NCBI GenBank assembly: GCA_027592745.1
Contig: JAQCLG010000022.1
Location: 1-33,979, forward strand
DNA: 33,979 nucleotides
DNA from: Pseudomonadota bacterium
GTDB taxonomy: Bacteria; Pseudomonadota; Alphaproteobacteria; SP197
Direction of reading: 5' to 3'
In this document: positions 2,317 to 26,812 of the stretch, piece by piece
Layout of the letters: each line of letters starts with the position of its first letter
Numbering within the stretch: position 1 is the first letter of the stretch
Notes under the pieces: model-generated
What the model was told of the DNA's origin: nothing
What the model saw: only the letters and a program-made list of their open reading frames with translations
Databases searched by the model: none
Program-made: the position numbers and the translations under genes

Positions 2317-3741
2317 ATGGCCGAGTACGATCTGGTCGTCAAGAACGGAACGGTGGCGACGGCGGACGATACCTTCCACGCCGACATCGCGATCCGCGAC
2401 GGCCGCATCGTCGCGCTGCTCGACGACGTGCCGGCCGGCGCGGCCAGGGAGGTGCTGGACGCGACGGGCAAGCTGGTGCTGCCGGGCGGCATCGAGGGTC
2501 ATTGCCACATCGGCGAGCCGCCCTTCGGCGGCGCCGAGCTGGCCGACGACTTCGAGTCCGCCTCGATCGTGGCGGCCTGCGGCGGCACGACGACGATCAT
2601 CCCCTTCGCCGGCCAGCAGGAAGGCAAGACCCTGCGCGAGGCGGTCGACTGGTGCCACGAGCGGGCGCGCGGCAAGTCGGTGCTGGACTACGGCTTCCAC
2701 CTGATGATCGCCGATCCCACGCCCCAGGTGCTGGGCCAGGAACTGCCCGCCCTGATCGAGGACGGCTACACCAGCTTCAAGGTCTTCATGACCTACGAGG
2801 GCATGAAACTCGAGGACATGCAGATCCTCGACGTGGTGGAGACCGCCCAGGAACACGGCGGCTTCGTCATGATCCACTGCGAGAACGATCATTGCATCAC
2901 CTGGCTGGCCGAGCGCCTGGAGCGGGCCGGCGACACCAGCCCGGCGCGCTTCGGCATCGCCCATGGCGAGGTCGCCGAGCGCGAAGCCACGCACCGGGCG
3001 ATCTCGCTCTCGGAGGTGGCCCAAACCCCGGTCTTCATCGTCCATGTCTCCTCGCACCAGGCGATGGACCAGATCGCCTGGGCCAGGAGCCGCGGCCTGC
3101 CGATCTACGGCGAGACCTGTCCGCAGTACCTGTTCCTCTCCTCGGAGGATTTCGCGCGGCCGGGCTGGGAGGGCGCCAAGTACATCTGCTCGCCGCCGCC
3201 GCGCGATCCCGGCAATGCCGACCACCTGTGGCGCGGCATCCAGAACGGCGTCTTCCAGATGGTCTCCTCCGACCACTGCGCCTATCGCATGGAGGGACCG
3301 GGCGGGCGCAAGGAGGCCGCCGGCGAGCTGCACTTCCACAAGGTCAGCCCCGGCCTGCCGGGCATCGAGAACCGTCTGCCGCTGCTGTTTTCCGAAGGCG
3401 TGATGACGGGGCGCATCGACCTGCAGACCTTCGTTGCCATGACCGCGACCAACGCGGCCAAGCTCTACGGCCTGCACCCGCGCAAGGGCACGATCGCGGT
3501 CGGCTCGGACGCCGACCTGGTGCTGTGGGACCCCGAGAAGACCGTGACCCTCACCCACGCCATGCTGCACGACCGCTGCGACTACACGCCCTACGAGGGC
3601 CACACGTTCCGCGGCTGGCCGGTGACAACGGTCTCGCGCGGCGAGATCCTCTGGCACGAGGGCGAGGTGCGCGCCCGGCCCGGACGCGGCGCCTTCCTGC
3701 CGCGCGGCCTGTCCTCGGCGGTCCGCCGCCAGGCGGCCTGA
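2317..3741 (+). CDS. Dihydropyrimidinase / hydantoinase family amidohydrolase
   Basis: 474 residues; cyclic-amide hydrolase of the amidohydrolase superfamily that opens dihydropyrimidine or hydantoin rings in the cytoplasm. The binuclear metal ligands are all present: GHCHIG (His62, His64), the Lys that becomes carbamylated in SFKVFMTY (Lys155), MIHCEN (His187), IVHVSS (His243) and SSDHCAYR (Asp319). Their spacing is that of known D-hydantoinases. The ATG at 2317 has GGGAG about 5 nt upstream. The stop is followed after 2 nt by glpD, so the two are probably co-transcribed. Exact substrate (hydantoin, dihydropyrimidine or another cyclic ureide) cannot be told from sequence. The divergent neighbour is a PLP enzyme, which would fit amino-acid or N-carbamoyl compound metabolism. 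Confidence 0.9.
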   Translation: MAEYDLVVKNGTVATADDTFHADIAIRDGRIVALLDDVPAGAAREVLDATGKLVLPGGIEGHCHIGEPPFGGAELADDFESASIVAACGGTTTIIPFAGQQEGKTLREAVDWCHERARGKSVLDYGFHLMIADPTPQVLGQELPALIEDGYTSFKVFMTYEGMKLEDMQILDVVETAQEHGGFVMIHCENDHCITWLAERLERAGDTSPARFGIAHGEVAEREATHRAISLSEVAQTPVFIVHVSSHQAMDQIAWARSRGLPIYGETCPQYLFLSSEDFARPGWEGAKYICSPPPRDPGNADHLWRGIQNGVFQMVSSDHCAYRMEGPGGRKEAAGELHFHKVSPGLPGIENRLPLLFSEGVMTGRIDLQTFVAMTATNAAKLYGLHPRKGTIAVGSDADLVLWDPEKTVTLTHAMLHDRCDYTPYEGHTFRGWPVTTVSRGEILWHEGEVRARPGRGAFLPRGLSSAVRRQAA

Positions 3742-6168: not shown

Positions 6169-6972
6169 ATGGCCGATGCACGAACCTGGATGGACCTGAC
6201 AGTCGACGACATCGCCGCCCTCGACACCGGGCGGTGCGTCGCCGTGCTCCCGGTCGGCGCCGTCGAACAGCACGGCCCCCACCTGCCCCTGGGCACCGAC
6301 ACCTACATCGCCGAGGGCATCGTCGCCCTGGCGCTGGCCCGTGTTGCCGACGATGTCCCCGTGCTGCTGCTGCCGACCCAGGCGATCGGCCACAGCCCGG
6401 AACACGGCAGTTTCCACGGCACCCTGAGCCACGAGGCCGAGACCCTGCTCGCCGCCTGGACGGAACTGGGCGCCGGCCTGCATCGCAGCGGCATCCGCAA
6501 ACTGGTGATCTTCAACGCCCACGGCGGCCAGCCCCAGGTCGTCGACCTGGTCGCCCAGCGCCTGCGCACACGCCTCGGCATGCTGGTGGTGCGCGCCAAC
6601 TACATGACCTGGCCCCTGCCCGAGGGGCTGGTCGATGCCGACGAGCAGGCGCACGGCCACCACGGCGGCATGGTCGAGACCTCGATCATGCTGGCCCTGT
6701 ACCCCGAACGCGTGCGTCTGGACCAGGCACGCGACTTTGCCTCCTCGGCGCGCGAGCTGGCGGCCCGGCACCGGCGTTTCGGCCACGGCGGACGCCTTGG
6801 GTTTGCCTGGCAGGCCCAGGACCTCAATCCGGCCGGTGTCGTGGGCAATGCCGCCGGTGCCAGCGCGGCCGTGGGGCAGGCCCTGCTCGACCACCATGCC
6901 GGACGGCTGGCGGACCTGATCGCCGATGCGGCAGCCTTCGACCTCGACCACCTACGCGACGGAGCGGGCTGA
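6169..6972 (+). CDS. Creatininase-family amidohydrolase
   Basis: 267 residues. The family includes creatinine amidohydrolase, MftE peptidase and FAPy deformylase, metal-dependent amide hydrolases. Metal ligands are visible: PVGAVEQHGPHLPLGTD (Glu33, His35, Asp44), FNAHGGQ (His118) and HHGGMVETSIML (Glu170). The GHSPEHGSFHGTLS segment is also characteristic. ATG 6169 is preferred; a TTG two codons upstream (6163) is possible, and no strong ribosome binding site is seen for either. It is the first gene of a three-gene operon: the flavin monooxygenase starts 2 nt after its stop. Since the partners are a monooxygenase and an alpha/beta hydrolase, it more likely opens an amide in a catabolic route than acts on creatinine itself. 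Confidence 0.88.
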   Translation: MADARTWMDLTVDDIAALDTGRCVAVLPVGAVEQHGPHLPLGTDTYIAEGIVALALARVADDVPVLLLPTQAIGHSPEHGSFHGTLSHEAETLLAAWTELGAGLHRSGIRKLVIFNAHGGQPQVVDLVAQRLRTRLGMLVVRANYMTWPLPEGLVDADEQAHGHHGGMVETSIMLALYPERVRLDQARDFASSARELAARHRRFGHGGRLGFAWQAQDLNPAGVVGNAAGASAAVGQALLDHHAGRLADLIADAAAFDLDHLRDGAG

Positions 6973-6974
6973 CC

Positions 6975-8231
6975 ATGGATATCGCGATTGTCGGCGGCGG
7001 CATCGGCGGCCTCGTTGCGGCCCTGGCCCTGCATGCCCGCGGCCTGGTACCCACGGTCTACGAAAGTGCCGCCGAGATGCGCCAGCTCGGCGTCGGCATC
7101 AACCTGCTGCCCCATGCCGTGCGCGTGCTCGACGACCTGGGGCTGCGCGCCCAGCTTCTCGAGAGCGGCATCGCCACCGCCGAACTGCTCTACTTCAACA
7201 AGTTCGGACAGCGCATCTGGCGCGAGCCGCGCGGCATCGAGGCGGGCTATGCCTGGCCCCAGATCTCGATCCATCGCGGCAGGCTGCACGGCCTGCTGCT
7301 GGCCGAGACACGCCGCCGCCTTGGCGCAGGGCGCATCCTGACCGGCCATCATCTAGCAGGCATCGAGGAGGGCGTGCGCCCCCTCCTCCACTTCACCGAC
7401 AGGACGAGCGGTGCCCATCGCGCCTCGGTTGCCTGCGACCTGGCGATCGGTGCCGACGGCATCCATTCCATGGTGCGGCGGCACTTCTATCCCGACGAGG
7501 GCGCGCCGGTGTGGAACGGCGCGATCCTGTGGCGCGCCACGACGGAAGGCATGCCGTTCCTTGGCGGGCGTTCGATGTTCATGGCGGGCCATGCCAGCCA
7601 GAAGTTCGTCTGCTACCCGATCTCGAAAGCCCATCACGACGCGGGCCGCTCCCTGATCAACTGGGTCGCCGAACTGCGCTTCGACCCGGACCGACCCTTC
7701 GCCCGCGAGGACTGGAACCGGAATGTCGACCGCGCGACCTTCCTGCCCGCCTTTGCCGACTGGCGCTTCGACTGGCTCGACATTCCCGCCGTCATCGAAG
7801 GCGCCGACGAGGTCTTCGAATACCCCATGGTCGACCGCGATCCCGTGGCGCGCTGGAGCTTCGGTGCCGTGACGCTGATGGGCGATGCCGCCCACCCGAT
7901 GTATCCGATCGGCTCGAACGGGGCTTCCCAGGCGATCCTCGATGCCGAAGCCCTGGCCCTGGCGCTGACCGGCCACGATACCATCGGCGGTGCCCTGGAG
8001 GCCTACCAGGAGGCCCGGCTCGGCCCGACCGCGGCGATCGTGCGCGCCAACCGCAACCAGGGGCCCGAGCAGGTCATGCAACTGGTCGAGGAACGCGCGC
8101 CGGGCGGCTTCGAGCGGCTGGAGGATGTCGTGACGAACGAGGAACTCGAGGGCATCGCGGCGCGCTACAAGCAGGTCGCGGGTTTCGACCGGGCGACGCT
8201 CGACAGCCTCGCGGCCGCGCCGCGTGGCTGA
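6975..8231 (+). CDS. FAD-dependent monooxygenase, PhzS-like group A hydroxylase
   Basis: 418 residues; single-component flavin hydroxylase of the PHBH/UbiH fold that uses NAD(P)H and O2. Landmarks are the N-terminal Rossmann motif DIAIVGGGIGGLVAA, a cluster resembling PhzS-type enzymes (LGVGINLLPHAVRVLDDLGL, then WREPRGIEAGY and QISIHRGRLHGLLL), CDLAIGADGIHSMVRR (the DG motif) and VTLMGDAAHPMYPIGSNGA (the GD motif binding FAD). The start ATG lies 2 nt after the creatininase stop, and the stop overlaps the next gene by 8 nt, so the three are translationally coupled. Phenazine synthesis genes are absent, so the substrate is more likely another aromatic or N-heterocyclic compound. Confidence 0.88.
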   Translation: MDIAIVGGGIGGLVAALALHARGLVPTVYESAAEMRQLGVGINLLPHAVRVLDDLGLRAQLLESGIATAELLYFNKFGQRIWREPRGIEAGYAWPQISIHRGRLHGLLLAETRRRLGAGRILTGHHLAGIEEGVRPLLHFTDRTSGAHRASVACDLAIGADGIHSMVRRHFYPDEGAPVWNGAILWRATTEGMPFLGGRSMFMAGHASQKFVCYPISKAHHDAGRSLINWVAELRFDPDRPFAREDWNRNVDRATFLPAFADWRFDWLDIPAVIEGADEVFEYPMVDRDPVARWSFGAVTLMGDAAHPMYPIGSNGASQAILDAEALALALTGHDTIGGALEAYQEARLGPTAAIVRANRNQGPEQVMQLVEERAPGGFERLEDVVTNEELEGIAARYKQVAGFDRATLDSLAAAPRG

Positions 8232-9105
8232 ACACCGCCTGCGCCTGTCGGACGGTGCCGATATCCTGCTGCGCCGTACCGGCAACCCCGAGGGTCCGCG
8301 GCTGCTGGTGAGCCACGGCACCGGTTTCGCCGTCGATGGCTTTGCCCGCATGTGGCAGCCGCTGGCGGCAACCTGCGACCTGGTGCTCTTCGACCTGCGC
8401 GGCCATGGGCGCAACGGCGCCGTGGCGCCGCAATCGGTCGACGCCGAGCGCCTGATGCGCGACATGGCCGAGATCGTCACCGCCTGCCACGAACATTTCG
8501 GGGCGCGGCCGTGTTTCGGCCTGTTCCACTCGATCTCCGCGCTCATGGCCCTGCGCCTGGAGAGCGTCTCGCCGGGCAGCTTCGCCGGCCTGGTACTGAT
8601 CGAACCGCCGGCCACGCCACCGGCCGGCGATCCCCGGTTCGATGCCTTCGAGGAAGGGCGCATGGCGCTGGCGAGTCGCTCGGCACGGCGCCAGGCGCGC
8701 TTCGGCGCCGTGGCCGAGCTGGCGGGCAAGTTCACCGCGCGCGGTCCGTTTCGTTTCTTCGAGCCGGGTGCTGCCGAGGAACTCGCCGCCGCCATGCTGG
8801 TGCCCGATGGCGAGGGCTGGAAACTCGCCTGCCCGCCGGAGGTCGAGGCTGCCTGTTTCGCCCGCAATCTCGACGACGGCCTGCGTCGGCGCCTGAAGGA
8901 CATCGGCTGTCCGGTGCTGATGCTGGTCGGGCGCGAGGACCTAGCGATCGACAGCACCCCCGCCTGCATCGCGCTCCACCTTGCCCGCCTGGGCGGCTTC
9001 GACCTGCTGGAGCTGGCCGATGCCACCCACATGCTGCCGCTGGAGCGCCCGCGCGCCATCGCCCGGGCCACACTCGGCTTCCTGGGGCTACACGCCGTCG
9101 CCTGA
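8224..9105 (+). CDS. Alpha/beta hydrolase
   Basis: 293 residues starting at GTG 8224, which overlaps the monooxygenase stop by 8 nt. The fold is clear from LLVSHGTGFAVDGF (oxyanion-hole region), LVLFDLRGHGRN, the nucleophile elbow, VLMLVGREDLAID (Asp239 as acid) and ADATHMLPLERP (His269 as base). The nucleophile elbow reads LFHSISA with Ser103 rather than the common GxSxG, so the site before Ser lacks the first Gly and the one after it is Ser. This is seen in some C-C hydrolase-like or thioesterase-like members. In context it may hydrolyse an ester, lactone or ring-cleavage product generated by the two upstream enzymes. Its 3' end overlaps the convergent TetR gene by 18 nt. Confidence 0.87.
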   Translation: MAEHRLRLSDGADILLRRTGNPEGPRLLVSHGTGFAVDGFARMWQPLAATCDLVLFDLRGHGRNGAVAPQSVDAERLMRDMAEIVTACHEHFGARPCFGLFHSISALMALRLESVSPGSFAGLVLIEPPATPPAGDPRFDAFEEGRMALASRSARRQARFGAVAELAGKFTARGPFRFFEPGAAEELAAAMLVPDGEGWKLACPPEVEAACFARNLDDGLRRRLKDIGCPVLMLVGREDLAIDSTPACIALHLARLGGFDLLELADATHMLPLERPRAIARATLGFLGLHAVA

Positions 9106-9690
9106 ACCGGCGCGCAGCAGATCGAGGTAACGCCGCAACTGGCCGACCTGGCGGCGGGCGGGCCACTCGCCGGGATCGAGCGAGGCGCGCAGACCGATGC
9201 CGTTGATCACGGCGCAGAGGCCTTCGGCCTGCTCCACGGGATCGTCGGCGGGCGCGATCTCGCCGCGTTCGGCCATGCCGGCCAGGCAGCGTCCGACCTG
9301 GGCGCGCCAGCGCTTGTGCATGCCGCGCTGGCGCCGCACCAGGGCGGGATCGCTGAGCGCCCTGGCCCAGAAGCTGTACCAGACGACGATCTCGGCGCGC
9401 CCCCTGCTCCCGATCGGCAGGGTTTCGCTGAGGAACCCCAGGACATCGCCCGGGGCACGGGCCAGGCGGCGTTCGATGCGGAGATTCATCGCGCCGATGG
9501 CGTGATCGAGCGCGGCAACCAGCACGGCGTTCTTGTCGGCGAAGTAATGGGTGATCGCGCCGGTGGTGCAGCCGGCGGCCGTGCCGACATCGGTCAGCTT
9601 CAGGCCGTCGATGCCGCGTTGCGCGATGACCCGGCAGGCGGCCGCCGCGATGGCGCTCCTGCGGCTGTCGTGATCGACGATGCGTGGCAT
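9088..9690 (-). CDS. TetR-family transcriptional regulator (BetI-like)
   Basis: 200 residues. The N-terminal helix-turn-helix is LTDVGTAAGCTTGAITHYF, ending in FADKNAVLVAALDHA as in BetI-type TetR repressors; the remaining all-helical part is the ligand-binding domain. ATG 9690 is chosen; a TTG two codons upstream is less likely. It is divergent from the acyl-CoA dehydrogenase operon across 84 bp, and its start codon overlaps the -35 element of that operon's likely promoter. That position suggests it represses the operon and is released by a substrate or acyl-CoA. Ends with TAG, convergent with the hydrolase gene. Confidence 0.88.
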   Translation of the reverse strand: MPRIVDHDSRRSAIAAAACRVIAQRGIDGLKLTDVGTAAGCTTGAITHYFADKNAVLVAALDHAIGAMNLRIERRLARAPGDVLGFLSETLPIGSRGRAEIVVWYSFWARALSDPALVRRQRGMHKRWRAQVGRCLAGMAERGEIAPADDPVEQAEGLCAVINGIGLRASLDPGEWPARRQVGQLRRYLDLLRAGSGDGV

Positions 9691-9720
9691 TGACAAAAAT
9701 CCGAAATCGACGGTTACATA
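9690..9720 (+). promoter_or_regulatory. Sigma-70-type promoter of the acyl-CoA operon
   Basis: A consensus TTGACA (9690-9695) is followed by TACATA (9715-9720, 19-bp spacer; TTACAT gives 18 bp) in a locally AT-rich patch unlike the surrounding high-GC sequence. It precedes the GTG start at 9775 and its ribosome binding site AGGGGAGA (9762-9769). The TetR start codon overlaps the -35. A clear palindromic operator is not visible. Confidence 0.6.
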
Positions 9721-9774
9721 ATAGCGATTACGTTAAACGCCCCCCGGGGCTGGGGCAAGCAGGGGAGACAGGCC

Positions 9775-10935
9775 GTGGACGCAGGATGGAGCAAGGACGA
9801 TCTCGACGTGCGTGCGCGAGCCCGGGAGTTCACCGCCCGCTTCCTCTACCCCTACGAGGAGGAACTCGACGAGGCCGAAGCGGTCAATCCCGAAACGGAA
9901 GCGGCGATCTGCCAGGCGGTGCGCGACTACGGCCTGAACGCGATCAACCATGCCCGCACGTTCGGCGGCCAGGAGATGACGATCCTGCAGCAATGCATCG
10001 TCAACGAGGAGGTCGGCAGCGCGACCAACGCCCTGTGGGGCCGCGTCTGGCAGCCGCCGATCTGCCTGAAGGACGGCACGCCCGAGCAGATCGAGAAGTA
10101 TCTGATCCCAGCCTGCCGCGGCGACATCACGACCTCGTTCTGCACCTCCGAACCGACGGCGGGCTCAGACGCCGGCGGCGTCAAGACCGCCGCGGTGGCC
10201 CAGGGCAACCAGTATGTCATCAACGGCGAGAAGTGTTTTGCCAGCAACGCGGAACGCGCCGACGTCAACCTGCTGACCACCGTGGTCGAGGGCAGGCCGA
10301 CCCTGTTCCTGATCGACAAGGGCACGCCCGGTTTCAACGTGCGCCGCCTGCCCCGATTCGCCCAGCGTTCCGGCCATGGTCATCCCGAACTCGACATCGT
10401 CGACATGAAGGTGCCCGCGACCCAGATGCTGGGCGGCGTCGGCATGGGCTACGAACTGACCAAGGACTGGTTCGTCGAGGCGCGCCTGGCGATCGCCGCA
10501 CGCAGCATCGGCATGGCCGTGCGGGCAAGCGAGCTGGCGCTGGCCTGGTCGCGCGAGCGGGTGCAGTTCGGCCAGGCGATCATCGGCTTCCAGGCCGTGG
10601 AGTTCATGCTGGCCGAGATGGCGACCGACATCATGGCCGGCAAGTCGATGCTCTACCGCGTCGCCAGCGAGATCGACCATGGGCTGGACCGCAAGGTCGC
10701 CCACGCCAAGGCCAGCGCGATCAAGCTGTTCTGCTCGGAAGCCGGGTTCCGGGTGGTCGACAAGGCGGTGCAGATCTTCGGCGGACGCGGCACGATGTGC
10801 GAGAACCCGGTCGAACGCCTGACCCGCGACATCCGCCTGGAACGCATCTGGGAAGGCACCTCGGAGATCCAGAAAATGGTGATCGGCGGCCAGATCCGCA
10901 AACGCGGCCTCGACATGTACACCGGCTGGGACTGA
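9775..10935 (+). CDS. Acyl-CoA dehydrogenase
   Basis: 386 residues, normal size for the FAD-dependent acyl-CoA dehydrogenase family, which makes 2,3-enoyl-CoA and passes electrons to ETF. Signatures: CTSEPTAGSDAGGVKTAA (flavin- and substrate-binding segment), INGEKCFASNAERAD, the QIFGGRGTM segment near the C terminus and the catalytic base in IWEGTSEIQKM (Glu360, matching the medium-chain enzyme position). Translation starts at GTG 9775 with AGGGGAGA upstream; no better ATG is in frame. It is the first gene of the operon controlled by the divergent TetR gene. Chain length or branching of the substrate cannot be inferred. No etfAB is adjacent; the next gene is an FrhB-like iron-sulfur flavoprotein that could have an electron-transfer role. 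Confidence 0.92.
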   Translation: MDAGWSKDDLDVRARAREFTARFLYPYEEELDEAEAVNPETEAAICQAVRDYGLNAINHARTFGGQEMTILQQCIVNEEVGSATNALWGRVWQPPICLKDGTPEQIEKYLIPACRGDITTSFCTSEPTAGSDAGGVKTAAVAQGNQYVINGEKCFASNAERADVNLLTTVVEGRPTLFLIDKGTPGFNVRRLPRFAQRSGHGHPELDIVDMKVPATQMLGGVGMGYELTKDWFVEARLAIAARSIGMAVRASELALAWSRERVQFGQAIIGFQAVEFMLAEMATDIMAGKSMLYRVASEIDHGLDRKVAHAKASAIKLFCSEAGFRVVDKAVQIFGGRGTMCENPVERLTRDIRLERIWEGTSEIQKMVIGGQIRKRGLDMYTGWD

Positions 10936-10965
10936 TCATCCGCCCCCATCCTGTTCGAGAGACTC

Positions 10966-12225
10966 ATGAGACATCCCCGATCCCTGCAGGAGATCGTCGA
11001 GAACGGCCTGTGCCTGGGCTGCGGCCTGTGCCAGTCGGTCGCCGGCCCCGACCGGGTCGTGATGGCCTGGGTCGATCCGCCCGGCATGCTGCGCCCGCGC
11101 ATCCTCACCCCGCTCGACCGCGTCACCGAGGATACGATCCTGGCGAGCTGCCCCGGCGTACGCCTGGACGAGCCGATGACGGCGGAACGCCACGGCCCCG
11201 ATGCGCGCGAGGACGCAACGTTCGGGCCCTGGATTCGCGCCTGGAAGGGTCATGCCGCCGATCCGGAGATCAACCACATGCCCTCCTCGGGCGGCGCGCT
11301 GACGGCGCTCGGCATCTACCTGCTCGAAAGCGGCAAGGTCGATTTCATCTGCCATGTCAGCGCCGACGAGAAACAACCCATGCGCACCCGCAGCCACGTC
11401 TCTACAAGCCGCGACGACGTGCTCAACGCGGCGGGTTCGCGCTACGGCCCGGCGGCACCGCTCGACCGCTTCCGGGAAATGCTCGACCGGGGCCGCCCCT
11501 TTGCCGTGATCGGCAAACCCTGCGACATCTCGGGCGTGCACAACATGCGCAGGCTCGACCCACGGGTCGATGCCCTGGTGCGCTACACCCTGGCGTTTTC
11601 CTGCGGCACCTTCGCCCCGCTCGACACCTCGCGCGCCCTGCTCGAACGCCAGGGGTTCCCCGGCGGAGCGCAGGGCGAGGACAATCTCTCGCTCTTCCGC
11701 TACCGCAGCTACGGCTGTCCCGGCCCGACCCGGGCGATCGACAAGGAAGGCAGGATCTACGATGAGAGCTACCAGGAGTTCTGCAACGGCCCGGCGGGCT
11801 GGCCGCACCAGTTCCGCTGCAAGCTCTGCGCCGATCCCACGGGCGAGGCGACCGACCTTTCCGTCGCCGATGCCTGGGAGGGCGGCGGTCCGACAGAGGA
11901 GGAATGGGGCGGCGAGAACATGTTCATCAGCCGCACGCCGCGGGGCGATGCCCTGATGGCCGAGGCGATTGCCGCGGGCGTGTTGGCGGTTGAACCCGAC
12001 GACATGGCAACCATGTACCGGGTCCAGCCGCACCAGGCGGTGAAGAAACAGGGGCTCAACGCACGTCTGGCGGCGACCGCCGATTCCGGCTATCCGGTGC
12101 CCGATTTCCGCAACGTCCGGCTCGAGGCTGCCCAGGTCCAGCGCGACGGGACGTTCTACGAGCAGAACTACGAAGGCACCAAGCTGCGCATCCAACGGGG
12201 CGTCAATCGTGAACGACTTGCCTGA
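10966..12225 (+). CDS. FrhB/FdhB-like iron-sulfur flavoprotein (coenzyme F420 hydrogenase/dehydrogenase beta-subunit family)
   Basis: 419 residues. The N terminus has a 4Fe-4S motif CLGCGLC (Cys16, 19, 22) completed by SCPG (Cys62). Next comes the FrhB_FdhB N domain with SSGGALTALGIYLLESGKVD. The C-terminal domain has GKPCDISG, SCGTF, YGCPGP and the late Cys pair in FRCKLCADP followed by DLSVADAWEGG, the pattern of this family. Characterised relatives bind FAD and F420 or reduce other partners (F420-reducing hydrogenase, formate dehydrogenase, phytochromobilin-type and chlorophyllide reductases). F420 use is not shown here. The gene sits 30 nt after the acyl-CoA dehydrogenase and overlaps the synthetase start by 17 nt, so a redox role in the same pathway is likely. 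Exact reaction unknown. Confidence 0.85.
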   Translation: MRHPRSLQEIVENGLCLGCGLCQSVAGPDRVVMAWVDPPGMLRPRILTPLDRVTEDTILASCPGVRLDEPMTAERHGPDAREDATFGPWIRAWKGHAADPEINHMPSSGGALTALGIYLLESGKVDFICHVSADEKQPMRTRSHVSTSRDDVLNAAGSRYGPAAPLDRFREMLDRGRPFAVIGKPCDISGVHNMRRLDPRVDALVRYTLAFSCGTFAPLDTSRALLERQGFPGGAQGEDNLSLFRYRSYGCPGPTRAIDKEGRIYDESYQEFCNGPAGWPHQFRCKLCADPTGEATDLSVADAWEGGGPTEEEWGGENMFISRTPRGDALMAEAIAAGVLAVEPDDMATMYRVQPHQAVKKQGLNARLAATADSGYPVPDFRNVRLEAAQVQRDGTFYEQNYEGTKLRIQRGVNRERLA

Positions 12226-14320
12226 AACTTCCGCCACCGACCGCCGCATCCGCCAGCGCCGCAACTTCCAGCACATGCTGCGTCCCCGTTCCATCGCCTA
12301 CATCGGCGGCAGGGGCCTGGCCGACGCCATGGACTATGCCCGCGAACTGGGGTTCACCGGCGAGATGTGGACGGTGCACCCGAGCTACGAGGAGATCGGC
12401 GGCGTGCGCTGCGTGCCCACGGTCGCCGACCTGCCGGGCGTGCCCGACACGGCCTGGATCGCGGTATCGACCGAACGCAGCGTCGACATCGTGCGCGAAC
12501 TCGCCGCGATCGGGGCGCCCTCGGCGGTGTGTTATGCGGCCGGCTTCTCGGAGATGGGCGACGGCGGCCTGGAGCGCGAGCTGATCGCGGCGGCCGGCGA
12601 CATGGCCCTGCTCGGGCCCAACTGCATGGGCATGATCAACTTCCTCGACGGCATCGCCGTCACGGTGGGCGACCATGGCGTGCTGCGCCCCGAGCGCGGC
12701 ATCGCCTGCATCGCCCAGAGCGGCACGATCGTCGGCAACATGGTGATGAGCGAACGCTCGCTGCCGGTCAGCCACATGCTCTCCATGGGCAACCAGTCGG
12801 TGCTCGACATCGCCGACGGCATCGATGCGGTGACCGACGATCCCCGCGTCACCGCCATCATGCTCTACATCGAGGGCCTGAAGGATGCCGAAGCCTTCGC
12901 GCGGGCCAGCGCCCGTGCCTTTGCCGCAGGCAAGCCGATCATCGTGCTCAAGGCCGGCGTCTCGGAGGCCGGACGCCAGATCGCCCTGTCCCACACCGGC
13001 TCCCTGGCCGGCACGCCGGAACTCTACGAGGCGCTGTTCGAGCGCCTGGGCATCATCAGCGTGGCGACCTTCCCCGAGCTTCTCGAGATGGCCAAGCTGC
13101 TCTCGGTGGGCGAGATCCCGCAGGGCAACCGGGTGATGATCGAGACCTGCTCGGGCACCGATTCGGGTTATTGCGCCGACCTGGCGGACCGTTTCGGGGT
13201 TGCCCTGCCCCAGCCCGACGAGGCGGTGAAGGCGGAACTGCGCAAGGTGCTGCCGGCAATCGCCACTGCGATGAACCCTCTCGACGTCACCATGGCACAA
13301 TGGGCCGACCGGGAGGCGCAGGCGACCTCGCTGATCACGCTGCTGCAACAGCCCGCCGATGCCGCCGCGCTGGTCATCAACTATCCGGCCAACGGCGGCG
13401 GCGAGACCTACGATCCGGCGATCGAGGCGATGCTCGACGTGCGCCAGGCCACGGGCCTGCCCTGCTACGTCATCACCAACCTGCCCGAGGGCGCCCCGCG
13501 TCCCATGCGCGAGCTGCTGCTGGCCCACGGCATCGTGCCGCTGCAGGGCATGGAAGATGCCTTCTCCTGCCTTGGCCGCGCGGCGCGTTACGTCGCCCGG
13601 CGGCGCGAACTGGAAGCCGCCGGTGGGCCGGAACAGCGCATCGTCGGGGCCGGCGAACTGCAGGGTGGCACCCTGCTCGACGAGTCGGCGAGCAAGGCCG
13701 CCCTCGCCGCCTTCGGCGTCGCCGTGCCCGCGGCACGACTGGTGCAGGGCGCCGAGGCAGCCGTGTCGGCCGCCGATACCCTGGGTTACCCGGTCGTGGT
13801 CAAGGGCCATGGCAGCACGCTGGCGCACAAGTCGGAACTTGGCGCGGTCGCGGTCAACCTGCGCGACGCGGCCGCCGTGCGGGCCGCAGCCACGACGATG
13901 GCCGCGATCCCCGGCGTCGAGGGCCTGCTGGTGGAGGCCATGGTGGGCGATGCCGTGGCCGAGATGATCGTGGGCATCAAGCGCGATCCGGCCCTGGGCC
14001 TGGCCCTGGTGATCGGCTCGGGCGGCATCCTGACCGAACTGCTGGCCGACAGCGTCAACCTGATCCTGCCGGCGAGCGAAGCCGACGTCCGCCGGGCGAT
14101 CGGACGCCTGCGCGGCCATGCCCTGCTTGCCGGCTTCCGCGGCCGTCCCGCCGGCGACATCGACGCGCTGGTCGCCACCGCGAGCGCCATCGCGGCCTAT
14201 GCCCAGGCCCATGCCGGGACGCTGATGGAACTCGACGTCAATCCCGTGCTGGTGCGCGAGGAGGGCAAGGGCGCGGTGGCGGTCGATGCGCTGATCCGCC
14301 TGGGCACACCCACACTATGA
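12209..14320 (+). CDS. NDP-forming acyl-CoA synthetase (acetate-CoA ligase family), fused alpha-beta
   Basis: 703 residues starting at GTG 12209, inside the end of the previous gene. It has the layout of ADP-forming acetyl/acyl-CoA synthetases. A CoA-binding domain (about 25-150) is followed by ligase-CoA domains containing the phospho-His loop LSHTGSLAG (His262) and then a C-terminal ATP-grasp domain (about 490-700) with the second transfer His in TLAHKSELGAV (His540). The CSGTDSG segment near 314 fits the second ligase-CoA subdomain. Such enzymes interconvert acid + CoA + ATP and acyl-CoA + ADP + Pi. No GNAT domain is attached, so it is not a Pat-type acetyltransferase. In this operon it probably activates the acid that the dehydrogenase then oxidises. 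Overlaps the SDR start by ATGA. Confidence 0.9.
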   Translation: MNDLPETSATDRRIRQRRNFQHMLRPRSIAYIGGRGLADAMDYARELGFTGEMWTVHPSYEEIGGVRCVPTVADLPGVPDTAWIAVSTERSVDIVRELAAIGAPSAVCYAAGFSEMGDGGLERELIAAAGDMALLGPNCMGMINFLDGIAVTVGDHGVLRPERGIACIAQSGTIVGNMVMSERSLPVSHMLSMGNQSVLDIADGIDAVTDDPRVTAIMLYIEGLKDAEAFARASARAFAAGKPIIVLKAGVSEAGRQIALSHTGSLAGTPELYEALFERLGIISVATFPELLEMAKLLSVGEIPQGNRVMIETCSGTDSGYCADLADRFGVALPQPDEAVKAELRKVLPAIATAMNPLDVTMAQWADREAQATSLITLLQQPADAAALVINYPANGGGETYDPAIEAMLDVRQATGLPCYVITNLPEGAPRPMRELLLAHGIVPLQGMEDAFSCLGRAARYVARRRELEAAGGPEQRIVGAGELQGGTLLDESASKAALAAFGVAVPAARLVQGAEAAVSAADTLGYPVVVKGHGSTLAHKSELGAVAVNLRDAAAVRAAATTMAAIPGVEGLLVEAMVGDAVAEMIVGIKRDPALGLALVIGSGGILTELLADSVNLILPASEADVRRAIGRLRGHALLAGFRGRPAGDIDALVATASAIAAYAQAHAGTLMELDVNPVLVREEGKGAVAVDALIRLGTPTL

Positions 14321-15108
14321 CCGCCTCCGCCATCTTCGCCGACGGCCTGCTCGACGGGCGTCATGTGCTGGTCACCGGCGGCGGCACGGGCATCGGGCTT
14401 GCCATTGCAAGGGAGTGCGGCCGGCTCGGCGCCCGCGTCACCCTTGCGGCCCGCCGCGAGAACATCCTCGCCGAGGCCTGTGCGGCGCTGAAGGGCGAAG
14501 GCATCGATGCGGCCTGGCGCGGGCTCAACATCCGCGACAACGATGCGGTGCTCGCGGCCTACGAGAGCATCGCCGCCGAACGCGGCCTGCCCGATTTCCT
14601 GGTCAACAACGCCGGCGGCCAGTTCGGTGCAAAGGCCGACGACATCTCGGCCAACGGCTTTCGCGCCGTCATGGACCTCAATGTCCAGGGCAACTGGCAG
14701 ATGAGCCACGCCTTTGCGCAGCGCCACCGTGCGGCCGGGACGCCGGGCCGGATCGTCAACATCGTCTTTGCCCACACCGACGCCATGGTGTTCTTTGCCC
14801 ATGCTGCGGCAGCCCGTGCGGCAGTCGTCAACCTGACTCGCACCCTGGCGCTGGAGTGGAGCGAACACGGCATCCTCGTCAACGCGGTGGGACCCGGCCC
14901 GGTGACCACCGAAGGGGTCGACCAGTACGACGAGGAGATGAGCGGCAGCCGCCTGATCGAGCGCATGCCGGTGGGACGCTGGGGACGCCCCGAAGAGGTC
15001 GCCTGGCTGGTCGCCTACCTGCTCGGACCGGCCGGCGACTGGATCACCGGAAGCTTCTTCCCGCTCGACGGCGGCGCCCAGCTCGCCGGCCGGCGCTTCG
15101 AACCCTGA
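14317..15108 (+). CDS. SDR-family oxidoreductase lacking the usual catalytic residues
   Basis: 263 residues, coupled to the synthetase by an ATGA overlap. The cofactor-binding TGGGTGIG (20-27), the NNAGG (97-101) and the C-terminal PLDGGAQLAGRR are normal for classical SDRs. The active-site region is not: where YxxxK is expected it reads FFAHAAAARAAVVNL, giving Ala163 (or His162) for Tyr and Arg167 for Lys, and the usual Ser is replaced in NIVFAH. Peroxisomal 2,4-dienoyl-CoA reductases also lack the Tyr, so an enoyl- or dienoyl-CoA reductase role would fit this acyl-CoA operon. Last gene of the operon; convergent with the DUF2165 gene 7 nt away. Confidence 0.85.
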   Translation: MTASAIFADGLLDGRHVLVTGGGTGIGLAIARECGRLGARVTLAARRENILAEACAALKGEGIDAAWRGLNIRDNDAVLAAYESIAAERGLPDFLVNNAGGQFGAKADDISANGFRAVMDLNVQGNWQMSHAFAQRHRAAGTPGRIVNIVFAHTDAMVFFAHAAAARAAVVNLTRTLALEWSEHGILVNAVGPGPVTTEGVDQYDEEMSGSRLIERMPVGRWGRPEEVAWLVAYLLGPAGDWITGSFFPLDGGAQLAGRRFEP

Positions 15109-15115
15109 CGAGCGA

Positions 15116-15598
15116 TCAGGCCGCCAGCACCGCCATGCTGGCGATGCCCCAGAGCGTTGCGAGCAGATGGGTCTGCTGGCCATGGGCGCCGTACCAGTAG
15201 TAGAACCACTGGCCGCCGATCAGGAAGGCCGACCAGACGCCGGTGAAGGCGAGCAGCCCGATCAGGCCCAGGGTCCGGGCGAGGTTGTCGTCGACGACGC
15301 CCCAGGCGGCGCCGGCCAGGGCCGCGGCTGCCAGCCAGAGCAGGAAGGTGGCGGCAAGCTCGCCGGCGACGATCAGGCGGAAGAGCCACAGGGTCACCGC
15401 CGCGTTTTCGATGCGCCGGTGCCCGACGCAGGCCTCGACCTCCGGATAGTCGGCCAGCGAGGCCATGGCGAGGACGCGGGCGACCTCGTCGCGGTTGATC
15501 GAGGGATGGAGGATGTTGTCGAGCACGCCCAGGCTGAGCCAGGCCGCCGGGAGGGCAACGAGGATGCAGCGCAGGACATCGAACACGAGGTCAGCCAT
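15116..15598 (-). CDS. DUF2165 small integral membrane protein
   Basis: 160 residues with four predicted membrane segments: VFDVLRCILVALPAAWLSLG near the N terminus, LFRLIVAGELAATFLLWLAA, the stretch around TLGLIGLLAFTGVWSAFLIG, and THLLATLWGIASMAVLAA at the end. The NILHP and GGQWFYYWYG motifs are typical of DUF2165. Function is not known. It starts 29 nt after the stop of the persulfide dioxygenase-rhodanese gene on the same strand, so both are probably on one transcript. A link to sulfur handling at the membrane is only suggested by this arrangement. Confidence 0.85.
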   Translation of the reverse strand: MADLVFDVLRCILVALPAAWLSLGVLDNILHPSINRDEVARVLAMASLADYPEVEACVGHRRIENAAVTLWLFRLIVAGELAATFLLWLAAAALAGAAWGVVDDNLARTLGLIGLLAFTGVWSAFLIGGQWFYYWYGAHGQQTHLLATLWGIASMAVLAA

Positions 15599-20395: not shown

Positions 20396-21172
20396 TCAGT
20401 CGGTCGCGGTCGAGAAGCCGTGGCGTTCGAAGATTTCCAGGCCCGGAGCACCGGTAGCGTAGTCGAGAAAGGCCCGGGCCAGCGCTTCGCCCTGCCCTTT
20501 CACGATGGCAAAGGGATAGACGATAGGATCGTGGCTTTCTTCGGGAAAGGCGCCGACGACACGGATATCCCGGCCCACCGCGGCATCGGTGCCGTAGACG
20601 ATGCCGAGCGGGGTTTCGCCCAGTTGCACCAGGGCCAGTGCCGAGCGCACGTTTTCGGCGCGGGCAAGGCGCGGCTCGGCCTGGGGCCACAGCCCCAGGT
20701 ACTCCAAGGCCTGGCGGGCATATATGCCAACGGGCACATGGGCCGGATCGCCCACGGCGATACGGCCGTCCGGTCCCAGGAGCGCCATGAGATCGAGGCC
20801 CGGGACAAGTGCGACCGTCTCGATGGAACTGGCCGCCGGAACGATCAGGACCAGCCGATTGCCGATCGGATTGACGCGAGACGCGGCTGCGATGAGGTCA
20901 CGCTCCTCCAGGTAGTCCATCCACTTCACGTCGGCCGAGGCATAGACCTGGGCCGGCGCCCCGGATTCGATCTGGCGGGCCAGGGTAGAGGAGGAAGCAA
21001 AGGACAGGCGGACCACGACACCCGTCTGCGCCTCGTACTGCGCCGCGATCTCGCTGAGGGCATCGGTGAGGCTCGCCGCACCGAAGACGGTGATCTCATC
21101 TGCCGCGCGAGCCGCCTGCAGCGGAGGAAGGGCGAGGAGGGCCGCAAGGAGCGCGGCAAGGAAGCGGGTCAT
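20396..21172 (-). CDS. modA: Molybdate/tungstate ABC transporter substrate-binding protein (ModA)
   Basis: 258 residues with a Sec signal peptide (MTRFLAALLAALLALPPLQA, cleavage near ARA-ADE). The mature start ITVFGAASLTDALSEIAAQY is the ModA signature with the Ser/Ala oxyanion-contact loop. Next come SFASSSTLARQIESGAPAQV and ASADVKWMDYLEE, also diagnostic, and later GIVYGTDAAV. The start ATG has AGGAGA 9 nt upstream. ModA captures molybdate or tungstate in the periplasm for ModBC. No modB or modC is in the window. It is the last gene of a same-strand run that starts with an aldehyde ferredoxin oxidoreductase, so it may serve a Mo/W-pterin enzyme. Selectivity for Mo versus W cannot be read from sequence. 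Confidence 0.9.
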   Translation of the reverse strand: MTRFLAALLAALLALPPLQAARAADEITVFGAASLTDALSEIAAQYEAQTGVVVRLSFASSSTLARQIESGAPAQVYASADVKWMDYLEERDLIAAASRVNPIGNRLVLIVPAASSIETVALVPGLDLMALLGPDGRIAVGDPAHVPVGIYARQALEYLGLWPQAEPRLARAENVRSALALVQLGETPLGIVYGTDAAVGRDIRVVGAFPEESHDPIVYPFAIVKGQGEALARAFLDYATGAPGLEIFERHGFSTATD

Positions 21173-24734: not shown

Positions 24735-24986
24735 TCAGCCGCCCTTGATCGGCGGGAACACCGTGACCCGTTCGCCATCCTGCAACACGCGGCTCGCCTG
24801 GTCACGTTCGCGCACGGCGACATCGTCGACCAGCGTCAGGCTGAGTTCGGCGCCGGCGACATCGAGGCGTTCGAGCAGGCCCGCAAGGGTGGTGCCTTCG
24901 GAGACCTCGATCTCGCCGTTGCCCTGGTCATCGATGCCGGGAACCGGATCGCCCAGATAGGCCACCAGCTTGACGGCGATCCTCAC
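24735..24986 (-). CDS. MoaD/ThiS-family sulfur-carrier-like protein
   Basis: 83 residues, beta-grasp fold. It starts at GTG 24986, which overlaps the aldehyde oxidoreductase stop (GTGA). The start is fixed by VRIAVKLVAYL, the usual first strand. The C terminus reads VTVFPPIKGG, with the terminal Gly-Gly that is adenylated and thiocarboxylated in MoaD or ThiS. No MoeB/ThiF, MoaE or thiamine genes are adjacent. Small MoaD-like proteins commonly accompany AOR-family genes, where they are thought to help form the bis-pterin cofactor; this is the likely role here. Confidence 0.9.
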   Translation of the reverse strand: MRIAVKLVAYLGDPVPGIDDQGNGEIEVSEGTTLAGLLERLDVAGAELSLTLVDDVAVRERDQASRVLQDGERVTVFPPIKGG

Positions 24987-26812
24987 GTCAGGCCGAGGCG
25001 CGTCAGCGTCTGGCCGCGCGGCACGCCCTCCTCGTCCCAGCCGCGCAGTGCGTAGTATTCCGGCAGCAGCTCGTCGAGGCGGGCGACCTGCCCCTTGGCC
25101 GTACCGGTCTTCACCGGCTCGTGCAGCATGCGTGAGGGCAGGCTGTCGTCCTTGCGGGTCAGCCCGGCCTTCAGGTTGAAGAGCTTCTCCAGGTTCCAGA
25201 TGCGCTCGCCGGTCAGCCGGATGCGGTCGGCGTCCCAGTGGCTTTCGAGCGCACCGTCGAGCATGCCCGCGATCTGGTCGATGTTCACCGCCGCGGCGAT
25301 GAAGGCGCAGATGCCCGCGGAATCGAACATGGCCGCACGTTCGTCCTGGCTCGCGCGCACGATCTCCGCCTTGCCCTCCAGCTCTGCAGTCTGGAAGTCC
25401 GAGGCAAAAGGGCTGGCGCGCAGGTGGCAGGCACCCCGGTTGGAGGTGGCATAGGCCAGCGCCATGCCCTGCATCGCGCGGGGGTCGTAACCGGCGAACT
25501 CCTGGCCCTTGGAAACCATGGCGAGTTCGGGCCGGCCGTACTTCTCGGTCAGACGCCTTGCCCCGAGGCCGACCATGGCGCCGAAACCCTCGCCCCTGGC
25601 GGTGAGTTCGGTCATGGCGACCAGGCCCTCGGCCGAACCGAACGAAAGATCGATGCCGCCGGTGTCCTCCAGGGTGATGGCGCCCTCCTCGAACAGCTCC
25701 ATGGCGGCGGCCAGGGAGCCGCCGTAGGAAATCGTGTCCATGCCGTCCTCGTTGCACACGAAGTTGGCGAAGGTCACGGCGTCGATGTCGTCGACGCCGA
25801 CCATGGCGCCGAGGGCAAAGACGTTCTCGTATTCCAGGCCGCCCGAGGCGGTGTGGTACTGCGGCTTGCCCTTGATCGAGAAATGTTCGGGATCGATCTG
25901 GGCGATGCGGCCGCAGGCGATGGTGCAGGCAAAACAGGCCTTGTTGGTGACAAGGTTGGTGACGCCGTTGGGGCCGTGGGGTTTCTGGGAGGCCGCGGCG
26001 TTGAGCTTGTCGGTGCCCTCGAACTGCACATCGCGCTCGTTGCGCGTGGGCAGGCTGCCATGGGCGTTGGTTACGTCCATCATGGCATGGGTGCCGAGTT
26101 TCATCAGGCGCTGGCGCGAGGCATGGGGCTGCAGCGTGCCCTTGGCGTTGGCGACCGCGGCCATGAAGGCCCGGGGGTCGTGCACGGTGACGCCGCCGGT
26201 GCCGCGCGCGGCCACGGCCTTGAGGTTCTTGGAACCCATGACCGCGCCCACGCCGGAACGTCCGGCGGCGCGGTGGAGTTCGTTGACGACGCAGGCAAAA
26301 CGCACCAGGCGTTCGCCCGCCCGCCCGATCGAGGCGACCTTGACCGCGGGATCGCCCAGTTCCGTCTTGATCGCCGGCTCGACCTCCCAGACCGAACGGC
26401 CCCAGAGATGGCCGGCGTCGCGCAGCTCGGCGCGGTCGTCGCAGATCCAGAGATAGACCGGACGTTCCGAGCGGCCATGGATGACGACCATGTCCCAGCC
26501 GGCAAGCTTGATCTCGGCCCCCACCTTGCCGCCGGAATTGGAGCAGGCGATGGCGCCGGTCAGCGCCCCCTTGGTGATGACGGCGTAGCGCCCCGCGGTG
26601 GGCGCCATGGTGCCGGTGAGCGGGCCGGTCGCAAAAATCAGGACGTTGCCGGGATAGAGCGCATCGACGGCCGGGTCCATCGATTCCATCAGGTACTTGG
26701 TCGCCAGACCGCGCTGGCCCATGTACTGCTCGGCCCATTCTCGGTTGAGCGGTTCGCTGACGCAGGTCCCTGCCGTCAGGTCCACGCGCAAAATCTTTCC
26801 CGTCCAGCCCAT
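24983..26812 (-). CDS. Aldehyde ferredoxin oxidoreductase family (tungstopterin) protein
   Basis: 609 residues, normal AOR size. The N-terminal pterin domain begins MGWTGKILRVDLT and has RGLATKYL, FATGPLTGT and ACSNSGGKVGAEIKLAGWD. The motif RFACVVNELHRAAGRSGVGA is typical of AORs. The 4Fe-4S ligands CFACTIAC (Cys293, Cys296, Cys300) and GICAF (Cys502) have the same spacing as Pyrococcus furiosus AOR Cys288/291/295/494. These enzymes oxidise aldehydes to acids with ferredoxin, or the reverse. The start has GAGGGG 8 nt upstream. It heads a same-strand run that continues with the MoaD-like protein and ends with modA. In aerobic alphaproteobacteria it would need a low-potential partner that is not in the window. 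Confidence 0.92.
   Translation of the reverse strand: MGWTGKILRVDLTAGTCVSEPLNREWAEQYMGQRGLATKYLMESMDPAVDALYPGNVLIFATGPLTGTMAPTAGRYAVITKGALTGAIACSNSGGKVGAEIKLAGWDMVVIHGRSERPVYLWICDDRAELRDAGHLWGRSVWEVEPAIKTELGDPAVKVASIGRAGERLVRFACVVNELHRAAGRSGVGAVMGSKNLKAVAARGTGGVTVHDPRAFMAAVANAKGTLQPHASRQRLMKLGTHAMMDVTNAHGSLPTRNERDVQFEGTDKLNAAASQKPHGPNGVTNLVTNKACFACTIACGRIAQIDPEHFSIKGKPQYHTASGGLEYENVFALGAMVGVDDIDAVTFANFVCNEDGMDTISYGGSLAAAMELFEEGAITLEDTGGIDLSFGSAEGLVAMTELTARGEGFGAMVGLGARRLTEKYGRPELAMVSKGQEFAGYDPRAMQGMALAYATSNRGACHLRASPFASDFQTAELEGKAEIVRASQDERAAMFDSAGICAFIAAAVNIDQIAGMLDGALESHWDADRIRLTGERIWNLEKLFNLKAGLTRKDDSLPSRMLHEPVKTGTAKGQVARLDELLPEYYALRGWDEEGVPRGQTLTRLGLT

Follow-up and report, generated by a model that had tools for sequence, protein, structure and literature searches.

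What does an FrhB/FdhB-like iron-sulfur flavoprotein do in an acyl-CoA operon of an alphaproteobacterium, and from which carrier does it take its electrons? The question is raised by contig JAQCLG010000022.1 (assembly GCA_027592745.1), a whole contig of 33,979 nucleotides (nt), hereafter the window, from a draft alphaproteobacterial genome of 263 contigs (99% complete, 2.2% contaminated). An earlier note, made from the sequence alone, had described a TetR-controlled operon encoding an acyl-CoA dehydrogenase (ACAD), an FrhB-like protein, a nucleoside-diphosphate (NDP)-forming acyl-CoA ligase, and a short-chain dehydrogenase/reductase (SDR), and had proposed an uncharacterised activation-and-oxidation pathway, possibly with an electron carrier of its own, with F420 biosynthesis as a point to check. 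That interpretation is partly supported: the gene arrangement and its regulation hold up, F420 does not, and the conserved core proves to be a different set of genes. Tentatively, and with confidence that stops a little short of even, we read the locus as a catabolic operon under TetR repression, which would open a compound of the cyclic amide type and break down the resulting small nitrogen-containing acid, with the FrhB-like protein as an F420-independent, probably ferredoxin-dependent reductase.

Gene content and conservation of the operon

The genes concerned and the site between them are the following, with profile matches in brackets.

6190–6972, plus strand: creatininase-family amidohydrolase (PF02633; Pfam 3e-69)
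6975–8231, plus strand: accessory flavin adenine dinucleotide (FAD)-dependent monooxygenase of the PRK07538 subfamily (NF005720, 595 bits, cut-off 400)
8224–9105, plus strand: accessory alpha/beta hydrolase (Abhydrolase_6, 3.5e-15)
9088–9690 (open reading frame to 9696), minus strand: TetR-family regulator with a BetI-type C-terminal domain (TetR_C_6, PF13977, 2.2e-24; TetR_N, PF00440, 5e-10)
9714–9736, between tetR and the ACAD gene: putative TetR operator, an inverted repeat, TTACATAAT-AGCG-ATTACGTTAA
9775–10935, plus strand: ACAD, GTG start (Acyl-CoA_dh_N/M/1; PF00441, 5.3e-42)
10966–12225, plus strand: FrhB/FdhB-like iron-sulfur flavoprotein (FrhB_FdhB_N, PF04422, 8.8e-19; FrhB_FdhB_C, PF04432, 6.2e-17)
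12209–14320, plus strand: NDP-forming acyl-CoA ligase, fused alpha-beta, GTG start (CoA_binding_2, PF13380; Succ_CoA_lig, PF13607; ATP-grasp_5, PF13549)
14317–15108, plus strand: SDR (adh_short_C2, PF13561, 4.4e-43)
15116–15598, minus strand: DUF2165 membrane protein, convergent neighbour (PF09933, 8.8e-24)

Open reading frame calls in the window place the TetR gene divergent from the ACAD, FrhB-like, ligase, and SDR genes, in that order, with a gap of 30 nt between the ACAD and FrhB genes, an overlap of 17 nt between the FrhB and ligase genes, and an ATGA overlap between the ligase and SDR genes. All five frames, both overlaps, and the Pfam domains bear out the earlier description, and a third-position GC content of 86–90% favours the called frames over overlapping antisense ones. 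The interval first described omits a conserved upstream block (6190–9105) that holds the creatininase-family, FAD-monooxygenase, and alpha/beta-hydrolase genes.

Loci were compared by tblastn across 16 genomes of the host's family, with an FrhB orthologue defined by at least 66% identity; relatives in public databases were assembled from metagenomes and carry the label Rhodospirillaceae or Alphaproteobacteria. The family's genomes are for the most part fragmented assemblies with 1–9% contamination, and gene absences were judged at 90–100% completeness. Orthologues of FrhB occur in 12 of the 16 genomes, and in every one of these 12 loci an ACAD gene lies directly upstream. The SDR gene follows in all 11 loci with a continuing contig (in genome G388, beyond an insertion), and a creatininase-family gene is found upstream in all 11 loci whose contig reaches that far, directly 5' of the ACAD gene in five. 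Because the identical order recurs in related genomes, the five-gene arrangement is confirmed as real and not a product of chance. The ligase gene is present in eight of the 11 testable loci and absent from G392, G393, and G388 (in G391 the contig ends before its position), while the creatininase, ACAD, and SDR genes are present in every testable locus; the conserved core is therefore creatininase–ACAD–FrhB–SDR, to which the ligase does not belong. Among the four genes whose co-occurrence the earlier note had put forward for checking, FrhB, ACAD, and SDR are thus constant and the ligase is not, while the creatininase gene, which it did not list, is.

Other members vary among the orthologous loci. 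The TetR gene is divergent from ACAD in seven of them; the FAD monooxygenase occurs in L006–L010 and is absent from L039 and L085–L089; and the alpha/beta hydrolase occurs in L006–L010 and L085. A DUF2165 gene is the convergent neighbour in six loci (L006–L009 and L039 among them), and in G388 and G391–G393, at the loci without ligase and TetR genes, the operon is preceded by M24 peptidase, EamA, MFS, and FAH-hydrolase family genes. G386 and G387 carry a second ACAD gene, whose product is 49–50% identical to the window ACAD, between ACAD and FrhB (L010, 5638–6807; L085, 8580–9749). An apparent single internal stop in the FrhB genes of G391–G393 was rejected, being the normal terminal stop.

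In G388 (contig C66, L089/L090, about 16.5–30.7 kb) the FrhB gene is split by an insert of about 14 kb that encodes a terminase large subunit and is probably a prophage that interrupts the operon; the alignments on either side of the insert overlap by 13 nt, and no exact repeats of at least 16 nt were found at its ends. Such an interruption would suit an FrhB-like protein that is a regulatory or vestigial passenger in an ordinary beta-oxidation branch, but to this we give very little credence: the protein is full-length and 66–86% identical in 11 genomes, all eight of its cysteines are kept in the aligned orthologues, and its position within the operon is fixed.

The regulation proposed earlier also finds support. 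The sequence TTACATAATNNNNRTTA, present at 9714–9730 as TTACATAAT-N4-RTTA, lies between tetR and the ACAD gene in all seven distinct orthologous loci that bear tetR and, among 145 loci, occurs in copies of those seven alone. A search of the window that tolerates two mismatches has an expectation of 0.02 matches and hits nothing but this site. The inverted repeat is clear in L007–L009. Conservation of this putative operator supports control of the operon by TetR, which would bind at 9714–9736. Being conserved and regulated, with constant partners and an operator that can be tested, the operon offers a context in which the true reaction of a catabolic branch of the family could be discovered.

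Clusters of the FrhB-like protein and the F420 question

Both superfamily domains of the window protein score over their cut-offs (PF04422, 67.9 bits against 22; PF04432, 62.3 bits against 23.3). Eight cysteines are invariant in an alignment of 28 homologues, four in the N-terminal part (C16, C19, C22, and C62) and four in the core (C186, C213, C285, and C288). In a profile alignment the latter fall on the core cysteines of the F420-reducing subunit 8RIU, and on the N-terminal side ferredoxin motif I retains its first three cysteines and motif II its CP cysteine; together these complete a single cluster set, the other set being lost. Since the invariant cysteines form one N-terminal and one core ligand set, as in BciB/HCAR-like reductases, the protein is predicted to carry two [4Fe-4S] clusters together with FAD. 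HCAR (7-hydroxymethyl chlorophyll a reductase) holds two [4Fe-4S] clusters. Taken by itself, the F420-reductase domain has one cluster; three are present in 8RIU and in that portion of Fsr which comprises its F420-oxidase and N-terminal ferredoxin regions (PMC10229431; PMC11493965). BciB, which has gone under the annotation frhB as well, contains FAD and Fe-S centres and receives its electrons from reduced ferredoxin (PMC4836224). By analogy, the window protein likely works as BciB and HCAR do; close membership of their family is not claimed, and a PDB profile search revealed no close sequence relation (HCAR at 6e-8).

The gene evidence speaks against F420 as a home-made carrier. No CofD was found in the host's own genome, CofH over cut-off was found in none of the 16 family genomes, and F420 was rejected in this role on these grounds; CofD is present in one family genome, G390, which is among the more fragmented and contaminated assemblies. 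On this evidence the host family does not make F420, and for that reason the FrhB-like protein is probably F420-independent and fed by ferredoxin. For the dedicated electron carrier suggested earlier there is no need and no sign; a gene for a 7Fe-type ferredoxin lies elsewhere in the genome.

Against NCBIfam models the window protein stays far below both relevant cut-offs (43.2 of 331.5 bits for frhB and 29.6 of 475 bits for FpoF). Some Alphaproteobacteria do make F420 (PMC8498797), and among 26 other Alphaproteobacteria with such FrhB proteins CofD is present in five and absent from 21. Because these proteins occur mostly in Alphaproteobacteria without CofD, the name 'coenzyme F420 hydrogenase beta subunit', under which they are annotated, misleads.

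It could still be argued that the protein uses F420 acquired from neighbours, or another deazaflavin, given that the solved structures nearest to it in profile comparison are F420-reducing subunits (8riu, 8rja, and FrhB) and that five of the sampled bearers do have CofD. We regard this as highly improbable, since CofD is lacking in 15 of the 16 family genomes and CofH over cut-off in all of them, the two-cluster layout is unlike that of FrhB (one cluster) or of the F420-oxidase part of Fsr (three), and we know of no F420 uptake system.

A candidate catabolic pathway

The ACAD has three ACAD domains and keeps the catalytic glutamate (IWEGTSEIQ) by Pfam and alignment, as expected of an acyl-CoA dehydrogenase, and the ligase combines CoA-binding, ligase, and ATP-grasp domains with the phospho-histidine motif HTGS (kept in eight loci), as expected of an NDP-forming acyl-CoA synthetase. 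The SDR is not a classical one: at the YxxxK position all 11 aligned orthologues read FAHxAAARAAV, with Ala in the place of Tyr and Arg in that of Lys, although the cofactor motif TGGGTGIG is kept. Its best NCBIfam match is PRK07576, followed by PRK08213 and PRK07677, with 2,4-dienoyl-CoA reductase among the models, and conserved histidines near the altered site are candidate proton donors.

In the proposed pathway, the creatininase-family hydrolase, aided in some strains by the FAD monooxygenase and the alpha/beta hydrolase, would open or trim a nitrogen compound of the cyclic amide type and so yield a carboxylic acid, which the NDP-forming ligase, in strains that have it, would convert into a CoA thioester. 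The ACAD would then introduce a C=C bond, its electrons leaving through electron-transfer flavoprotein (ETF) as usual, and the FrhB-like protein would gather single electrons from ferredoxin for the two-electron reduction of a conjugated or C=N pathway intermediate, a role like that of BciB and HCAR towards chlorophyll precursors. A further NAD(P)H-linked step would fall to the SDR, by way of a non-standard acid/base residue. We infer the substrate class, ferredoxin as the donor, and the direction of the FrhB step; a supporting observation is that distant catabolic relatives of the FrhB-like protein also adjoin hydrolases and lyases that act on amides and amino acids.

Several points weigh against this proposal. 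The best PDB profile match of the FrhB-like protein is the F420-reducing subunit 8riu (9.4e-37), with HCAR weaker (6e-8) and behind twelve F420-type chains, and a structure model built from six orthologues is too poor to use (predicted local distance difference test score, pLDDT, of 44). The operon holds no gene for a ferredoxin or a ferredoxin reductase, and none for a hydratase or thiolase, which leaves the pathway incomplete in cis. The amide-type substrate is suggested by family names only, and in G392, G393, and G388, which have no ligase in cis, CoA activation may either be provided in trans or lie outside the core chemistry.

The main rival makes the FrhB-like protein the electron-transfer partner of the ACAD, either passing low-potential electrons from ferredoxin to an ACAD that works as an acyl-CoA reductase, in the manner of acryloyl-CoA reductase, or taking electrons from the ACAD in place of ETF. 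The fixed position of ACAD directly 5' of FrhB fits this arrangement, as does the best NCBIfam match of the ACAD, the acryloyl-CoA reductase AcrC, but that match (237 bits) is far under the curated cut-off of 640. Acyl-CoA oxidation, moreover, cannot reduce ferredoxin unless there is bifurcation, the operon has no etfAB gene, and 31 distant FrhB-like loci have no ACAD nearby; we therefore judge the rival unlikely.

If a ferredoxin-fed reductase is indeed at work, the locus would represent a previously undescribed catabolic role for FrhB in Alphaproteobacteria, namely the F420-independent reduction of an acyl-CoA or heterocyclic intermediate alongside an ACAD, a ring-opening enzyme of the creatininase family, and an SDR without the Tyr/Lys pair. 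This wider claim we put forward as possible but doubtful; if true, it would describe one branch of a larger unexplored reductase group. What is new is the role and the setting, not the fold. A literature search on FrhB in combination with an acyl-CoA dehydrogenase, a creatininase, or a pyruvyl transferase returned nothing specific and no characterised match to the pathway, in keeping with the earlier description of it as uncharacterised.

Two further features of the window deserve mention. A D-hydantoinase/dihydropyrimidinase gene lies upstream of the block at 2317–3741 on the plus strand (529.5 bits, cut-off 393), is also present in L009 and L085, and may point to a cyclic ureide or imide as the substrate. 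An aldehyde ferredoxin oxidoreductase gene (24983–26812, minus strand; AFOR_C, 2.6e-125) adjoins a gene for a ThiS/MoaD-like protein of 83 amino acids (24735–24986, minus strand), with a gene for a ModA-type molybdate-binding protein nearby (20396–21172, minus strand). The oxidoreductase, encoded 10 kb off on the other strand, might supply reduced ferredoxin; we claim no connection between it and the operon.

Relatives and known systems

A tree of 52 proteins places the operon type (11 sequences) in a clade of its own (support 100/100), apart from two other groups: an exopolysaccharide type, encoded next to polysaccharide pyruvyl transferase or glycosyltransferases (99/99), and a paralogue type found in the same host family (100/100). 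The paralogue in the host's own genome (G000, contig C32; L003, 2355–13122) is 39% identical to the operon FrhB and neighbours dimethylformamidase-like, M81, M19 dipeptidase, SDR, distant NDP-forming ligase, and (judged by eye) sulfotransferase-like genes, a cluster that recurs in several family genomes. The remaining distant homologues adjoin amino-acid or amide-type enzymes (PALP, M20, M24, TPP enzyme, lyase, and mandelate-racemase family). The linkage of FrhB-like and dehydrogenase genes, on which the earlier note staked its reading, holds throughout the orthologues, but an ACAD is nearby in none of 31 distant FrhB-like loci, and the pairing is therefore specific to the host family.

Most context markers were chosen from the same loci, so that these contexts are descriptive and not a test; only eight loci (L121–L128) were held out, six of which have pyruvyl transferase or glycosyltransferase matches, and 12 control windows held few marker genes. 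The loci L100, L101, and L122–L127 (Rhodobacterales and others) combine an FrhB-like gene with one for a polysaccharide pyruvyl transferase or a glycosyltransferase, and no literature naming FrhB-like proteins together with polysaccharide pyruvyl transferase was found. On a Rhizobium gallicum plasmid (L099), an FrhB-like gene lies in a region with ehu ectoine transport genes, M24 and M20 hydrolases, and ectoine synthase, which resembles ectoine catabolism.

Among such relatives, the exopolysaccharide-cluster proteins of Alphaproteobacteria (e.g., on a Dinoroseobacter shibae plasmid) are about 30–38% identical to the window protein and full-length, with the same cysteine plan in two aligned members (L057 and L058), but differ in their separate clade and glycosyltransferase context. 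The FrhB-like protein of the Pseudomonas sp. MPC6 plasmid pMPC6-328K is 45% identical and likewise adjoins M24 hydrolase and SDR genes, but has no ACAD, ligase, or creatininase beside it.

Of the characterised systems, 8RIU (the F420-reducing zeta subunit of an archaeal CODH) and 8RJA (the FrhB-like subunit of an F420-reducing Fwd complex) are the best profile matches, nearly full-length (9.4e-37 and 1.6e-26), and share with the window protein the placement of a ferredoxin domain at the N-terminus, ahead of the FrhB domain (PMC11493965); they differ in the two N-terminal clusters of 8RIU, against one predicted here, in their F420 acceptor, and in their CODH or Fwd partners, which are absent from the window locus. 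FrhB of F420-reducing hydrogenase (3ZFS, 6QGR) has the same core flavin domain and core cysteine positions but lacks the N-terminal ferredoxin domain, and the window locus has neither hydrogenase subunits nor F420 genes. BciB (8-vinyl chlorophyllide reductase) and HCAR (PDB 5DQR) share with the window protein the FrhB_FdhB_N/C fold family, a stand-alone FAD and Fe-S constitution that dispenses with F420, and the cysteine sets for two [4Fe-4S] clusters; they differ from it in their chlorophyll substrates, their operon setting, and, for HCAR, the weakness of the profile match.

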